Virus record (IMG/VR): IMGVR_UViG_3300020183_000264
Coordinates: 1-33,967 of that record
DNA: 33,967 nucleotides
Strand: one strand, 5' to 3'
Origin: a virus
The stretch's first letter is position 1. Each line of letters starts with the position of its first letter. Both the position numbers and the translations under genes were made by a program. The notes under the pieces are model-generated. The model ran no database searches and was not told the origin of the DNA. It worked only from the letters and a program-made list of their open reading frames with translations. Of this stretch, positions 3,218-10,445 are shown one piece after another.

Positions 3218-4003
3218 ATGGGATTTGCCCAGACTGCCAGCTTCGAACATGATTTTCTACCAGATTTCCTGACACGAACACAGAAAAAACGCCTAAAAAA
3301 GCAAGTTCGACAAGAAAAAGCAGCCAGCAGAGTCCATATTTCACAATTTCCACTTGATTTATCGAAGATAAACCCGCTAACATCTGGTCAAGCCCGTACT
3401 TTTTCTGCTTTTGACGACGGAAAGCATCTAATTTTGCATGGTGTGGCTGGTACTGGAAAGACTTTTGTGTCTCTTTACCTTGCTCTGCGGGCTGTTATGG
3501 GTGGTGAAGCACCCAAACCAGTCATTATTATTCGCTCCGTGGTACCTACAAGAGACATTGGGTTTCTTCCAGGCTCACAAAAAGAGAAATCCGCGGTATA
3601 TGAGGAGCCTTATGTGGCCATTTGTAATGAATTATTCAATCGCGGTACAGCTTATGATACACTAAAACGTGATGGAATGATACAATTTGCTACAACATCA
3701 TTTCTTCGTGGTTTGACTTTCCGTGATAATATTGTCATAGTTGATGAATGTCAAAATATGACCTTTCATGAGCTGGATTCTGTCATTACTCGCATGGGTA
3801 CTGGATGCAAGGTCATTTTCTGTGGTGACTTTAGACAGAGTGATCTATGGCGTGATGATGAGCGAAACGGACTACATAAGTTCATGTCCATCATATCACA
3901 TATGCGAAGCTTTACGCGTGTGGAATTTACGAAAGACGACATCGTTAGGTCTGCCCTAGTGAAAGAATATATTGAGGCGAAGCTGGAAGAAGGGATCGTG
4001 TGA
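3218..4003 (+). CDS. phoH: PhoH-like P-loop ATPase
   Basis: A 261-residue member of the PhoH family of superfamily-1-helicase-like ATPases, common in marine and T4-like phages. The Walker A motif is GVAGTGKT at residues 75-82, Walker B is IVIVDECQN at 172-180, and the GDFRQSDL element at 203-210 matches the family's third motif. The N-terminal 40 residues are strongly basic (TRTQKKRLKKQVRQEKAASR) and may bind nucleic acid. The start is ATG 3218 after a good AGAGGGAG site. Its last bases overlap the GTG start of the next gene by four, suggesting translational coupling. The role in phage is unsettled; RNA metabolism and phosphate-linked functions have both been proposed. Confidence 0.88.
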   Translation: MGFAQTASFEHDFLPDFLTRTQKKRLKKQVRQEKAASRVHISQFPLDLSKINPLTSGQARTFSAFDDGKHLILHGVAGTGKTFVSLYLALRAVMGGEAPKPVIIIRSVVPTRDIGFLPGSQKEKSAVYEEPYVAICNELFNRGTAYDTLKRDGMIQFATTSFLRGLTFRDNIVIVDECQNMTFHELDSVITRMGTGCKVIFCGDFRQSDLWRDDERNGLHKFMSIISHMRSFTRVEFTKDDIVRSALVKEYIEAKLEEGIV

Positions 4004-4692
4004 AGTTTATTCATGAGATAGTTGACCTACCCGAGCTTACCGCGGTTCAAACAGACCGCGGTAGGCTATATAATACCCCCTCAGGTGCAGCTTACCCATC
4101 CATAACTACAGTCCTCGGTGCTAGACCTGAGAAAAAGCGAATAATCGCTGAGTGGCGAGCGCGTGTTGGTGAGCAAGAGGCCAATAAAGTATCATCACAA
4201 GCATCCCGACGCGGTACTTTGATTCATAATATGATGGAGAAATATTTCTTAGGCAAAGATCCAATTGTGGGTGAGATGCCTAGCAATGTGACCATATTTA
4301 ATTCTATTCGGGCGGCCGCCGACAAGCACTTGACACACATCTATGCTATGGAAGCGCCGTTATATTCTGATAAAATGCAGATAGCTGGTCGATGCGATCT
4401 TGTTGGAAAATGGGCTGGTATGGATTGTATCATCGATTTCAAGACATCTAAGCGCCTCAAAGAAGAGGCTCATATCGACAACTATCTTTTGCAAGCTACG
4501 GCATACTCTCTCATGTTTGAGGAATTAACCGGACGAATTATACCTGGTATTGTGATATTAATCGGTGTTGATGATGAGGTAAAGCCTCAAATATTTTGTC
4601 GCTATCGCGACAAATATGTGAATAAACTATGTCAGATTATCTTAGAATACTACGCAGATAGCCGTTTACATTATACCCATAACCTTGTATAA
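4000..4692 (+). CDS. PD-(D/E)XK family exonuclease (Cas4/RecB-like)
   Basis: The protein has the ordered motifs of a RecB/Cas4-type nuclease: RRGTLIH at residues 70-76, a Glu near 119 (AMEAPLYS), GRCDLVG at 130-136 with the metal-binding Asp133, IIDFKTSK at 144-151 with Asp146 and Lys148, and QATAYS at 165-170. This is the single-strand exonuclease type, without the iron-sulphur cysteines of Cas4. It starts with GTG at 4000, overlapping the PhoH stop, with GAAGAAGGG just upstream. It could act in recombination, replication or host DNA degradation. Its 3' end contains the promoter of the tmRNA gene that follows. Confidence 0.8.
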   Translation: MKFIHEIVDLPELTAVQTDRGRLYNTPSGAAYPSITTVLGARPEKKRIIAEWRARVGEQEANKVSSQASRRGTLIHNMMEKYFLGKDPIVGEMPSNVTIFNSIRAAADKHLTHIYAMEAPLYSDKMQIAGRCDLVGKWAGMDCIIDFKTSKRLKEEAHIDNYLLQATAYSLMFEELTGRIIPGIVILIGVDDEVKPQIFCRYRDKYVNKLCQIILEYYADSRLHYTHNLV

Positions 4693-4693
4693 G
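4665..4693 (+). promoter_or_regulatory. Sigma70-type promoter for the tmRNA
   Basis: TTTACA at 4665-4670 and TATAAG at 4688-4693 are separated by exactly 17 bases, a near-consensus host sigma70-type promoter. Transcription should start near 4700, just before the tmRNA acceptor piece. The promoter lies within the last codons of the nuclease gene. The gp32 promoter at 7590-7618 has the same spacing and the same TATAAG box. Confidence 0.65.
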
Positions 4694-4703
4694 TATATTA
4701 GCT

Positions 4704-4935
4704 ATCGTTGATGGTGGCATAATAGATGCTACGGACCGCGGGGCGGCACCGCGCAGCTCCACCAATATGGGGCTGAAATAGACTTCGACGTGCATGGTAA
4801 AAGTTATCCGGAGATAGCGGCTGGCGACCTAATTGCCATTGATAAGTGCCAATGACAACGGCTTTGCCGTAGCACTCGCTGCCTAATAGGCAAACGCGGT
4901 TTGGGGAGCACCGGGCAACAGAAGCTCCCCGCCCT
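4704..4935 (+). ncRNA. ssrA: Split, circularly permuted tmRNA (alphaproteobacterial type)
   Basis: tmRNA rescues stalled ribosomes, acting as alanyl-tRNA and then as template for a degradation tag. The acceptor piece comes first: a five-pair T stem (CGCGG 4737-4741 with CCGCG 4749-4753), then CAGCTCC 4754-4760, discriminator A and encoded CCA at 4762-4764. After ATAT (4765-4768), the coding piece begins with GGGGCTG 4769-4775, which pairs with CAGCTCC over seven bases (one G-T). GACTTCGAC follows as the D-arm region. The tag frame is 4848-4889. Downstream, GGGGAGC 4903-4909 pairs with GCTCCCC 4924-4930, and loop GGGC 4913-4916 can pair with GCCC 4931-4934, forming a pseudoknot. This order (3' half before 5' half) defines permuted tmRNAs. 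The outer ends are estimates; the T loop GGCGGCA is not the usual TTCRANY. Confidence 0.9.
4848..4889 (+). other. tmRNA proteolysis-tag reading frame
   Basis: Twelve codons starting with GCC at 4848 encode ANDNGFAVALAA, followed by tandem stops TAA TAG. The ANDN start and ALAA end are the signature of ssrA tags; the AA terminus is what the ClpXP protease recognises. With the charged alanine added first, the full tag would be A-ANDNGFAVALAA. The frame sits where expected, between the first structured region and the downstream pseudoknot. Confidence 0.88.
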
Positions 4936-5570: not shown

Positions 5571-5573
5571 TTG

Positions 5574-6404
5574 ATGTCATTTTATGATGCGTGTCTTAAT
5601 AATGCTAGGCTTAGTCTAATTGCAGGGCCCTGCGTATTTGAATCTAAACAACACGCTCTTGATATAGCTGGCTCCATAAAAGAAATCTGTGATAAGTTCA
5701 ATATCAATTACATCTATAAAACATCATTTGACAAGGCCAATCGATCCAGTTTTCAATCATATCGTGGTGCTGGTTTTGATGAAGCTTATTATGGTATGTC
5801 GGCTGTGAAAGAAATTCATGGAATTGAAATTTTGACAGATATACATGAAGCTTGGCAATGTGATTCTGTGGCCGCTGATATCATACAGATACCAGCATTT
5901 CTTTGTCGTCAGACAGATTTGCTTCAAGCCGCGGCTGGTACTGGTAAGCCTGTAAATGTGAAGAAGGGTCAATTTCTTTCTCCGCGTGAAATGGTCAATA
6001 TCATAGCAAAGCTTGAATCATTTGGCTGCAATCAGGTCATGATGACGGAGCGTGGCACAACATTTGGTTATAATGATCTTGTGGTTGATATGAGATCACT
6101 CGCAATTATGAAAAATAATACACCAGCAAATTATCCGGTGATCATGGATTGCACTCATGCTGTGCAGTCTCCGGGAGGTCATGGTACGTCATCTGGTGGT
6201 AATCGTGATATGGTTCCTGTCATCGCTCGTGCGGCTGTAGCTGTCGGTGTCGCAGGTGTATTCATGGAGGTTCATCAAGATCCGGATAATGCACCGTGCG
6301 ACGGACCCAACATGCTCAAGTTAGCCAATCTTTCCTCTGTACTTGAGCAGCTACTTGATATAGACTATGTTGTGAAAGGAGTCAAGACTAATGAAAATGG
6401 GTAA
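5574..6404 (+). CDS. kdsA: 3-deoxy-8-phosphooctulonate synthase (KDO-8-P synthase)
   Basis: The enzyme condenses phosphoenolpyruvate with arabinose 5-phosphate to KDO-8-phosphate, the committed step to the KDO sugar of LPS. The 276-residue length is close to bacterial KdsA (about 280). Diagnostic runs are KTSFDKANRSS near 49-59, ILTDIHEAWQ, IIQIPAFLCRQTDLL, KKGQFLSP and MDCTHAVQSPGG. The N-terminal IAGPCVFES carries the Cys of the metal-dependent class; the E. coli enzyme has Asn there. ATG 5574 follows TAGGAG. It overlaps the cupin gene by 14 bases. No other KDO-pathway gene (kdsB, kdsC, kdsD) is in the window, so the product either supplements host LPS or feeds a phage-directed sugar modification. 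Confidence 0.88.
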   Translation: MSFYDACLNNARLSLIAGPCVFESKQHALDIAGSIKEICDKFNINYIYKTSFDKANRSSFQSYRGAGFDEAYYGMSAVKEIHGIEILTDIHEAWQCDSVAADIIQIPAFLCRQTDLLQAAAGTGKPVNVKKGQFLSPREMVNIIAKLESFGCNQVMMTERGTTFGYNDLVVDMRSLAIMKNNTPANYPVIMDCTHAVQSPGGHGTSSGGNRDMVPVIARAAVAVGVAGVFMEVHQDPDNAPCDGPNMLKLANLSSVLEQLLDIDYVVKGVKTNENG

Positions 6405-6771
6405 GATTTGGGGTGATACTGAGGATCTATTCACAAGTCCGAGTGTAGAGGTGCATCGCATCAATACTAAAGCTGGGTTTAGATGTTCGCTGCATAGTCA
6501 TCGCCATCGTTGGAATGGTTTTTATGTTGTTAGTGGTATAATTGAAATTCATGTTGAAAAACAATATGGCTTGACAGATGTGACTGTGCTAAAGGCTGGA
6601 GATTTCACGGCTGTATCACCTAATGAGATACATTGTTTTGTATGCATAGAAGATGCTCAGGCACTTGAGATTTACTGGCCTCAGCATATGGAATCTACAG
6701 ATATCATACGTAAAGATGTTGGTGGATTTGTTGCTGCGCTGGCCACTCAGGAGACAAAAATTGAAAGCTGA
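6391..6771 (+). CDS. Cupin-domain protein
   Basis: A single-cupin protein of 126 residues. The first motif is seen as HSHRHRWNGFYVVSGIIEIH (about residues 35-54), the second as AGDFTAVSPNEIHCF (about 69-83), giving several histidines for one metal ion. The order and the LEIYWPQ ending recall mannose-6-phosphate isomerase type II or WxcM-like sugar-modifying cupins, but a single cupin cannot be assigned a substrate by eye. AAAGGAG precedes ATG 6391, and the gene overlaps kdsA upstream and gene 33 downstream. The coupling with kdsA suggests a joint role in sugar metabolism, which is inference. Confidence 0.75.
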   Translation: MKMGKIWGDTEDLFTSPSVEVHRINTKAGFRCSLHSHRHRWNGFYVVSGIIEIHVEKQYGLTDVTVLKAGDFTAVSPNEIHCFVCIEDAQALEIYWPQHMESTDIIRKDVGGFVAALATQETKIES

Positions 6772-7003
6772 AATATCCAGCGTAATGACACCAGATCGTT
6801 TCGCGAAGATGCTTGATCGAACCGTCAATGAGAAAAACTTGACATATCTTGATGCTATCATATATGTGTGTGAAAGCACCGGATTAGAAGTTGAGCTTGT
6901 GCCACGATTGATGATACCACGAATTAAGAAAATTCTCACCAGTGAAGCTAATAGCTTGAACCTTCTGAAGCGCAAGCCTGATGAACCTCGCTTACCAATC
7001 TGA
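6761..7003 (+). CDS. 33: Late-promoter transcription accessory protein (T4 gp33-like)
   Basis: In T4, gp33 bridges RNA polymerase and the sliding clamp to activate late transcription. The 80-residue product has the family pattern LTYLDAIIYVCESTGLEVE followed by LMIPRIKKIL, EANSLNLLKRK and an acidic/hydrophobic end. The start is placed at TTG 6761, seven bases after AGGAG, inside the cupin 3' end; ATG 6785 is an in-frame alternative. T4 gp33 is longer (112), but related phages have short versions. The gene order cupin-33-59-32 keeps the T4-group linkage of 33, 59 and 32. It agrees with the late boxes found before structural genes in this window. Confidence 0.75.
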   Translation: MKAEISSVMTPDRFAKMLDRTVNEKNLTYLDAIIYVCESTGLEVELVPRLMIPRIKKILTSEANSLNLLKRKPDEPRLPI

Positions 7004-8607: not shown

Positions 8608-10445
8608 AAAGCTGCGGTCATGGCCGCCGCAGCGTAATCGAAGGCATCTCCAAGAGTGTTATCAGAATTTCTAGTCTGAACACCTGTTGGAGTGCTTGCT
8701 GGTGGTGCGGGTTGTGGAGCCTGTTGTGCAGCGCCACGAACTTCTTGTATTATCGGAGGTAGAACCTTGACATTTACCAAATTATCACGACCTAAAGAAA
8801 GTTCTAATCTTCTAGGATCTATACCAGATGCTAGCGCCTCTTGAGTGGCACCTTCTATTCGACTTATATTTTCTCTGAGCTGTTCTGGTGTAGTAGGTTG
8901 AAATGCTTTTTCTTGACGTCTCAGCTGCTCAGCTTGTTCCTCAGTTATACGACCGCTTGCGACGGCTTCCTCGATAGAACGAACTGTTCTTTCTGTACCT
9001 ACGGTACGTTCTCTACTCTCTGTTCTTAGTTGGGCTAGTCTATTTGATAATTCGGTTTGCATATTTGCACCGATTTCAGCACCTTTGGCCATCTGTTCAT
9101 AATAATCTTCAGGTGCTTCATTTTCATCTAGATATGCTTTGAATAATGCTTGAGCGATTTCTGGTCCATACATTGATCCAGCCGCACCACCCGCCACACC
9201 ACCAATAATACTTCCTACTGGACCTAATAAGGTACCTATAGCAGCACCGGCGGCAGCTCCACCAATTCCACCTAATGATTTACCAAGCAGATCAACCATT
9301 TGTTGCTTGAACTCTTCTTCACTAAGTGAGCCCGAGTTTCTTTCTCTTATCAATCTATAAGCATCTATTCCATCTGGTATCACGCTAAGAACTGCACCCA
9401 AGGCACCAGCACGAATCATCCTTCTAGGTAAAGTATTTTTGGTTGCGGTAGGTTCTGGTGCACCTGACACAGGAGGTTTAGGTGTTGGTGCTGGTGTAGG
9501 AGCTCCGCTTGGAGCCTTAACATATTTGCCTGTAGTAGGATCTCTAAATTTTGTGTTACCCGATTTGTCCGTCTCTGCAATAGGTGCAGCACCAGCACCT
9601 GGTACCTTAGGTGCAATAGGTGCAGCACCAGCACCTGGTACCTTAGGTGCAGCACCAGCGCCACCGGCACCGGCACCTGCAGGCTTGCCAGTACCACCAC
9701 CACCACCAGTGGTGCCTCCACCTGAAGGCTTGCCAGCACTACCAGCACCGGGAGGGGATCTATTAGATCCCGGTGGGGTCCTCCCCTGGTTAGGCGCAGA
9801 AGGAGGACGCAACAACTGAAGAGCAGCAGCAACTCCAGCTAATCCAAGAAGTCCGGCCCCCACCGCAGTCAATAATCCAGAATATTCGCTGATTTTTTTG
9901 CGGATTTCATCAATCATCTCGATGAAACCATCAATAGGTTTAGCTATGCGCTGTATATTCTCATCGGACATACCGGATAGCATGGTGATGGCTGCGAGAG
10001 CAGCACCTGATAGCAAGGTACCACCAAGTCCCATGCCAGTCACGGCTCTAGTGCCAGTTGATAAAGTGCTACCTATTTTTCGTAGCAAGTTGCGGCCTTT
10101 CTCAGACCTTTCCTCAGCTACCCTAAACTCCTCATTTCTGATATCCTGTGTATCGCGTCTTTCAGAGGTTAATGATCTTTGTAGCTCTATTATAGCCTCT
10201 CTTGCAAAAGATGCAGTATTACTGATAAACATATAGACGTCCCTCTGGAATGCTTTAAACATGTCCAGTGGAACGTATTCACCTCTAGGTTTATCATCGC
10301 GAGACATAGAACCGCTAGCAGCATTATCAATTCGTTTTGCGCTAACCATCTTATAATTCTGAGCTAGATCATTGTACCTGCTAGTCCTCTCATCATAGAC
10401 TATCGACGTATCGAGCAGCGATGCGGCATTAGCTAAGTTTGCCAT
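8604..10445 (-). CDS. Gly/Ala/Pro-rich tail protein, candidate tape measure
   Basis: A 613-residue protein with four parts: a charged helical N-terminus (to about 130) rich in Arg/Glu; two hydrophobic segments at about 135-155 and 188-212; a long Pro/Gly/Ala linker (about 215-330) with an exact 12-residue repeat; and a glycine-zipper membrane-like segment at about 385-425 (GGIGGAAAGAAIGTLLGPVG), followed by charged helices. Hydrophobic segments inside a long helical protein are usual for tape measures. T4 gp29 (590 residues) would otherwise be missing from this tail cluster, which is why I propose it; no direct motif proves it. The ATG overlaps the stop of the preceding gene (TAATG). It is the last gene before the operon terminator. 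Confidence 0.5.
   Translation of the reverse strand: MANLANAASLLDTSIVYDERTSRYNDLAQNYKMVSAKRIDNAASGSMSRDDKPRGEYVPLDMFKAFQRDVYMFISNTASFAREAIIELQRSLTSERRDTQDIRNEEFRVAEERSEKGRNLLRKIGSTLSTGTRAVTGMGLGGTLLSGAALAAITMLSGMSDENIQRIAKPIDGFIEMIDEIRKKISEYSGLLTAVGAGLLGLAGVAAALQLLRPPSAPNQGRTPPGSNRSPPGAGSAGKPSGGGTTGGGGGTGKPAGAGAGGAGAAPKVPGAGAAPIAPKVPGAGAAPIAETDKSGNTKFRDPTTGKYVKAPSGAPTPAPTPKPPVSGAPEPTATKNTLPRRMIRAGALGAVLSVIPDGIDAYRLIRERNSGSLSEEEFKQQMVDLLGKSLGGIGGAAAGAAIGTLLGPVGSIIGGVAGGAAGSMYGPEIAQALFKAYLDENEAPEDYYEQMAKGAEIGANMQTELSNRLAQLRTESRERTVGTERTVRSIEEAVASGRITEEQAEQLRRQEKAFQPTTPEQLRENISRIEGATQEALASGIDPRRLELSLGRDNLVNVKVLPPIIQEVRGAAQQAPQPAPPASTPTGVQTRNSDNTLGDAFDYAAAAMTAAF
8606..8633 (-). terminator. Intrinsic terminator of the minus-strand structural operon
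   Basis: Read on the minus strand, GCTGCGG (8633-8627) and CCGCAGC (8617-8611) form a seven-pair GC-rich stem with a nine-base loop, followed directly by TTTTT (8610-8606). The hairpin encodes the last residues (AAAAMTAAF) of the 613-residue protein, so coding and terminator share bases. No T-tract follows it on the plus strand. Confidence 0.75.
9578..9649 (-). repeat. Two exact copies of a 36-bp unit in a Pro/Ala/Gly linker
   Basis: The units 9578-9613 and 9614-9649 are identical; each encodes the 12 residues APKVPGAGAAPI (circularly placed). A third, partial copy follows. It lies in the flexible linker of the 613-residue protein, where copy number can vary without harm. Confidence 0.8.

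Follow-up and report, generated by a model that had tools for sequence, protein, structure and literature searches.

The window, a 33,967-base IMG/VR fragment of a T4-like phage, a virus of water bacteria, very probably carries a phage-encoded, selected gene for a circularly permuted tmRNA in which the junction between the two pieces is an exchangeable slot, empty in this copy. Phage tmRNAs are known and their role in infection is not; the present family lends itself to testing, since its candidate promoter is precise, its locus is constant, and some members are in culture (Melnitz on OM43; HTVC008M and Mosig on SAR11). The slot is also a place for phage genes that annotation skips, such as an open reading frame (ORF) in Melnitz, and it bears on why tmRNA genes stay split, because a split gene gives a removable segment that is cut out by tRNA-processing enzymes.

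The tmRNA gene and its phage setting

A first-pass annotation had proposed a split, circularly permuted tmRNA at positions 4704–4935, to be checked against the Rfam model alpha_tmRNA (RF01849). That search returned a significant match at 4661–4933 (122.6 bits against a gathering cut-off of 50, E 3.3e-33) spanning the full model (positions 1–355), the model tmRNA_permuted (RF04321) matched as well (102.2 bits, cut-off 47, E 4.7e-19), and ARAGORN independently detected a permuted tmRNA with the tag ANDNGFAVALAA and two stops, all of which bear the proposal out. The order described there, with the acceptor piece 5' of the coding piece and four bases (ATAT, 4765–4768) between them, is exact in the sequence: the T arm and CCA (4762–4764) come first, then ATAT, then G1 at 4769.

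The acceptor piece (4704–4764, plus strand, as are all features of the locus given here; 5' end approximate) follows from the RF01849 and RF04321 alignments and comprises a strand ATGC (4726–4729) that pairs in trans with the coding piece, a T arm (4737–4753) whose stem is paired in 13/13 relatives, and the acceptor 3' strand CAGCTCC (4754–4760), followed by A4761 and CCA. The coding piece (4769–4935; 3' end approximate), placed by ARAGORN, Rfam, and the alignment of relatives, opens with the acceptor 5' strand GGGGCTG (4769–4775), a D-loop-like GAAATAGACTTCGACG, and the trans strand GCAT (4791–4794), and continues through the pseudoknot region, where the hairpin GGCGA/TTGCC (4823–4837) belongs to the first pseudoknot, to the ARAGORN-defined tag reading frame (4848–4889), in which ANDNGFAVALAA, a tag shared by relatives and closing with a degradation signal of the ALAA type, is directly followed by TAA TAG. 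A 3' hairpin, GGGGAGC/GCTCCCC, with an alpha-type ACCGGGCAACAGAA element (4903–4930) was placed by the RF01849 alignment. The acceptor stem has seven pairs, with A73 at A4761; the pairing of GGGGCTG with CAGCTCC apart from one G-T had been recognized earlier and is present, but the G-T is no flaw, as it forms the third pair, G3·U70, the conserved alanine (AlaRS) identity pair (PMC3985003). A prophage-displaced tmRNA fragment (a partial 3' end at an attachment site) was considered and rejected on the full-length match (1–355) and the T4-like gene cluster. The 4-nt spacer was likewise dropped as remarkable in itself, spacers of 2–12 nt being common in phage tmRNAs and occurring in bacteria.

Gene content agrees with Rfam and ARAGORN in supporting an alphaproteobacterial-type two-piece tmRNA borne by a T4-like genome, as first proposed. 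Upstream lie a PhoH-like gene (3218–4003; PHROG 170, E 1e-81) and a PD-(D/E)XK exonuclease gene (4000–4692; PHROG 298, E 5e-58); downstream follow genes for a cell-wall hydrolase, a DAHP-synthetase-family aldolase, a cupin, a gp33-like late-transcription coactivator (6653–7003; PF16805, E 2e-15), gp59, and gp32. The aldolase (DAHP-synthetase-I family, PF00793, E 7e-68) and the cupin, at 5571–6771 between the tmRNA and gp33, are probably auxiliary metabolic genes.

When annotated phages were searched with the window's DNA for near and for distant similarity, a single weak match to gp32 emerged and the tmRNA had no match, and the comparison was therefore made through IMG/VR; a genome-collection scan for the window's exact junction gave no match. 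The window's gp6 is closest to those of Melnitz, HTVC008M, and Mosig (about 36% identity), and the exonuclease–tmRNA–gp33 locus is common to all four phages; beyond the exonuclease, PhoH precedes it in the window, Melnitz, and HTVC008M but was not seen in the stretch of Mosig that was read. In HTVC008M the permuted tmRNA (NC_020484.1, 145161–145370; RF04321) has no annotation in the record. The two-piece tmRNA of Melnitz has been described in a study that counts 53 two-piece tmRNAs in isolated phages (PMC9004378), and such genes are already known in marine T4-like phages; the permuted tmRNA that the first-pass annotation placed in a T4-like phage is thus present but not new, since Melnitz (PMC9004378), HTVC008M, and Mosig already have one. 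Melnitz and Mosig resemble the window in being T4-like, Kyanoviridae-type phages with an alpha-type permuted tmRNA, the exonuclease upstream, and gp33 downstream (PMC9004378), whereas the intervening sequence (IVS) between the pieces measures 142 nt and contains an unannotated ORF in Melnitz and measures 4 nt in the window. A glutamine (glnA) riboswitch is common beside the tmRNA at Melnitz-type loci without defining them (PMC9004378); an Rfam scan of the window found tmRNA families only and no such riboswitch. The RNA shares with the Caulobacter-type alphaproteobacterial tmRNA (RF01849) its permuted order, GGC-type T loop, ACC.GGCAACAGAA element, ALAA-ended tag, and G3·U70; unlike the latter, it is phage-borne and has a putative phage-specific promoter, and its 122.6 bits compare with 143–321 for the main chromosomal alphaproteobacterial copies sampled (RF01849). 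In itself, the element at 4704–4935 is an unexceptional addition to the two-piece tmRNAs of phages.

Constraint on the RNA was read from an alignment of thirteen window-clade tmRNA sequences with the IVS removed. The acceptor stem is paired in 91/91 cells, with G·U at pair 3 in 13/13; the GGCGA/TTGCC hairpin (65/65 cells paired) shows compensatory changes at 4/5 pairs, the 3' hairpin (91/91 paired) has one compensatory pair, and the trans helix between the two pieces has one compensatory change. Conservation in the clade extends to the tag frame, the resume region, and the stops, all of which are intact. On this comparative evidence and the full-length model match, the window's tmRNA gene is complete and under selection.

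Upstream of phage tmRNAs lies a promoter-like element, TTGACA-N17-TATAARTA, which in the window (4665–4695) takes the sigma-70-like form TTTACA (4665–4670), a 17-nt spacer, and TATAAGTA (4688–4695). TATAARTA accompanies 93/172 viral tmRNAs vs 1/139 bacterial ones, nearly always 66–83 nt and mostly 74–80 nt 5' of the CCA end, and a −35 element matching at least 5/6 positions occurs at 10/10 window-clade loci and 83% of the other motif-bearing phage loci, vs 3–4% in shuffled sequence. We infer that the upstream element is a dedicated, phage-specific promoter. The window's −10 element, TATAAGTA, is also similar to the T4 late motif TATAAATA.

The intervening sequence as an exchangeable slot

Nothing of the spacer is conserved across the nine viral contigs closest to the window. 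An acceptor-only pattern, blind to the IVS, retrieved 78 viral contigs, and within the window clade IVS lengths of 4 nt (the window and L273), 5 nt (L009, L109), and 7 nt (L221, L250, L263) were found alongside others of 45–46, 69, 76, 107, and 118 nt; the window's ATAT is the minimal, empty form, with no gene or long insert between the pieces. The bacterial control used RF01849 matches in one alphaproteobacterial class sample (115 genomes) and one family sample (61 genomes), IVSs being extracted by a single rule and L286, L291, L293, L560, and L561 being left out as second or phage-like copies. The median IVS is 78 nt in viruses (133 distinct sequences from the acceptor-only scans) vs 27 nt in bacteria (139 distinct; Mann-Whitney p 2e-17, which is indicative only because the rows are not phylogenetically independent), and 63/133 viral IVSs reach at least 80 nt, compared with five of the 139 bacterial ones.

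The ends of the insert are themselves structured, as the first ten bases of the IVS and the matching last bases form a 10-bp closing stem in which 88% of cells are paired across 120 viral IVSs, vs at most 59% when the register is slid by 1–3 bases and 54% in the bacterial set; in the same 120 sequences the stem covaries, with several pair types at most positions. An identical 78-nt IVS is found in L212 and L268, although the likeness of their coding pieces is 57%. Other tmRNAs are almost the same (99%) but differ in the IVS, the size of which varies freely; together, these pairs indicate that the IVS moves, or is exchanged, separately from the tmRNA body. Cores of 58–130 nt have no excess RNA structure relative to shuffled sequences (mean z −0.39), and in 17 loci with long IVSs Rfam revealed no riboswitch or ribozyme there and nothing significant except tmRNA. 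Selected genes flanking the cargo-bearing loci include those for a T4-type helicase, gp32, PhoH, and ribonucleotide reductase, and some without a family match. At the level of sequence, these comparisons show the IVS of these phages to be a hypervariable, exchangeable slot for tRNAs and micro-genes, of which we found no description in the open-licence literature. The cargo claim rests on relatives of the window, and the cargo analysis was largely exploratory, having been prompted by the first of these relatives.

Two kinds of nested tRNA were found. In two window-clade contigs (L129/L131, also represented by L277/L260), a 118-nt IVS contains a tRNA-Met(CAT) that starts one base after CCA; its D arm is odd, which leaves its function uncertain, and it is known from these two contigs only. 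The second is a tRNA-Phe in L305. These loci alone passed the default ARAGORN threshold; a lowered threshold, at which most IVSs appear tRNA-like, was distrusted, as it also hits IVSs with clear ORFs. The 107-nt IVS of L230 ends in GGTAGCG...CTCTACCGCCA-ATAT directly before the coding piece, and this end looks like a decayed tRNA, although ARAGORN detects no tRNA there. A tRNA gene nested in an IVS has a precedent in the nominal archaeon GCA-2688965, whose permuted tmRNA contains a tRNA-Ala and was called unique (PMC11915505); unlike that single sequence, the phage slot also holds protein-coding cargo and is exchangeable.

Protein-coding cargo was found in long inserts. Across the 31 viral IVSs of at least 130 nt, the longest ATG-initiated ORF covers a mean of 79% vs 35% in dinucleotide shuffles (p<0.05 for 24/31 and p<0.01 for 17/31), and none of seven bacterial IVSs of at least 60 nt shows such an excess. 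Many of these ORFs are preceded by a Shine-Dalgarno-like motif. For five ORF families, considering IVS-internal codons only, dN/dS was 0.02–0.32 where estimable, synonymous sites being saturated in some pairs. In every pair, change is greatest at the third codon position. Viral IVSs of at least 130 nt thus appear mostly to hold micro-genes under purifying selection. Searches of IMG/VR with two ORF families, made like the Pfam match below as later checks after the ORFs had been picked, retrieved 52 and 13 loci, and a strict criterion placed 56/65 of them within the IVS of a tmRNA; for the Melnitz family this holds at 13/13 loci. In Melnitz itself, the ORF MFKWLSKTRLVVITRDYFRERNRKADAKIPKYLSGTRSVYD... 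(predicted peptide MFKWLSKTRLVV...) lies in the 142-nt IVS under the tmRNA feature without a CDS, and in tblastn searches of isolated phages with the IVS ORF families only four Melnitz strains match.

The other family, a 45-residue, tryptophan-rich IVS micro-gene, also has a few copies outside any tmRNA (L596, L600, L611, L621), which makes that family a gene in its own right; the freestanding copy in L611 keeps the IVS leader TAAACACATGAGGATATA without a tmRNA acceptor. In L319, the IVS (after position 8724) encodes a 63-residue ORF matching Pfam DUF6356 (PF19883, E 4e-11), a family of unknown function, and the other IVS ORFs tested gave no significant family match. Searches of the open-licence literature turned up no earlier account of tmRNA intervening sequences that encode proteins. 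Group I intron tmRNA genes carry homing endonucleases and so also place a protein gene inside a tmRNA gene (PMC11915505), but there the protein gene is lodged in a self-splicing intron within the T loop, whereas the phage cargo occupies the junction of a permuted two-piece gene; the phage loci scanned gave no match to an intron family, and no significant homing endonuclease match was obtained among the IVS ORFs tested.

Predicted function and competing readings

In the Caulobacter-type pathway, RNase P cuts the precursor before G1, trimming proceeds to CCA, and the two RNAs, which remain joined by base pairing, are charged with alanine and function together with SmpB (PMC3985003). By analogy, the dedicated promoter would drive a single precursor, from which RNase P would cleave before G4769 while exonucleases would trim ATAT back to the CCA ending at 4764, leaving two RNAs joined by the acceptor stem and the trans helix. 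Host AlaRS would charge this tmRNA via G3·U70, and host SmpB would deliver it to stalled ribosomes, which would add ANDNGFAVALAA and then be released. Neither the window nor the complete phages Melnitz, HTVC008M, and Mosig gave a match to the SmpB family, so that this protein would have to come from the host. The phage-controlled rescue of ribosomes that the first-pass annotation had envisaged is plausible. In relatives, the precursor may double as the carrier of a second gene, with nested tRNAs, non-coding inserts, or Shine-Dalgarno-led micro-genes enclosed within the covarying closing stem.

Other readings of the same locus differ in what they ask of the gene. Host ssrA is a common integration site and its fragments occur in prophages (PMC9004378), which would suit a functionless relic, such as a piece of host tmRNA that the phage acquired through imprecise excision; against the completeness of the gene over the full model, its putative dedicated promoter, the compensatory changes, and the retention of the locus in three cultured relatives, we consider this extremely unlikely. 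The missing SmpB in the window and its three relatives would also fit a phage tmRNA whose main effect is to block host trans-translation, or to divert it as a decoy, rather than to rescue ribosomes. Such a role has been proposed for a tag-less form of the phage DS6A tmRNA, which inhibits the endogenous tmRNA when expressed in E. coli (PMC11915505), yet a decoy has no need of the tag frame, resume region, and stops that the clade keeps intact and conserved, and this role is very unlikely. The long IVSs could also be no more than intergenic insertions tolerated at a permissive site, with small ORFs arising by chance or as dying passengers: the absence of excess structure in cores of 58–130 nt and the free variation in IVS size among near-identical tmRNAs are what such insertions would give, but the low dN/dS, ORF coverage far above that of shuffles, the recurrence of two families at 52 and 13 loci, the Pfam match, freestanding copies of one family, and the maintained closing stem make it quite unlikely.

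Within the preferred reading of a selected tmRNA gene with an exchangeable slot, cargo and rescue might be linked further. Many nested ORFs run 13–42 nt into the 5' end of the tmRNA, so that the RNase P cut would remove their stop codon; in aquatic T4-like phages, the permuted precursor could then be dual-purpose, with cargo translation and tmRNA maturation as alternatives and the RNase P-cut, non-stop mRNA being rescued by the new tmRNA itself. If true, this would amount to a built-in coupling of cargo expression and ribosome rescue. We regard the dual-purpose scheme as rather unlikely and the coupling as a guess, while the slot and its coding cargo are supported by the comparisons above; some ORFs stop inside the IVS, and the coupling would therefore not be universal.

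The origin of the RNA was first put down to capture from an alphaproteobacterial host, and the RNA type fits, but the trees are compatible with a separate capture as well as with a single phage origin (p-AU 0.92 and 0.78 for a single phage clade). In free trees the window clade (support 100/99) groups with bacterial rather than marine-phage tmRNAs, the latter forming a group of their own (100/99), as would follow if a copy captured separately and later from a freshwater alphaproteobacterium had taken the place of the ancestral phage copy at the same locus. Trees constrained to a single phage clade nevertheless score higher, by 38.6 and 12.4 lnL, and are not rejected at those p-AU values, and Melnitz, HTVC008M, and Mosig share the synteny of the locus; a separate capture is accordingly possible, if not quite an even prospect. 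Some bacterial genomes contain related copies: L291/L561 (Salipiger mucosus) and L560 are second alpha tmRNA copies (74 and 73 bits) beside a normal one and probably derive from prophages or other mobile DNA. The Rhodobacteraceae MAG Water_Bin34 has two contigs (L286 and L293) with different phage-like permuted tmRNAs, one with an IVS micro-gene, which suggests that phage contigs were binned into a bacterial genome. Two further phage tmRNAs, L231 and L282, carry an unusually long tag, ANDNFKPELSFDFDGVLEAA.
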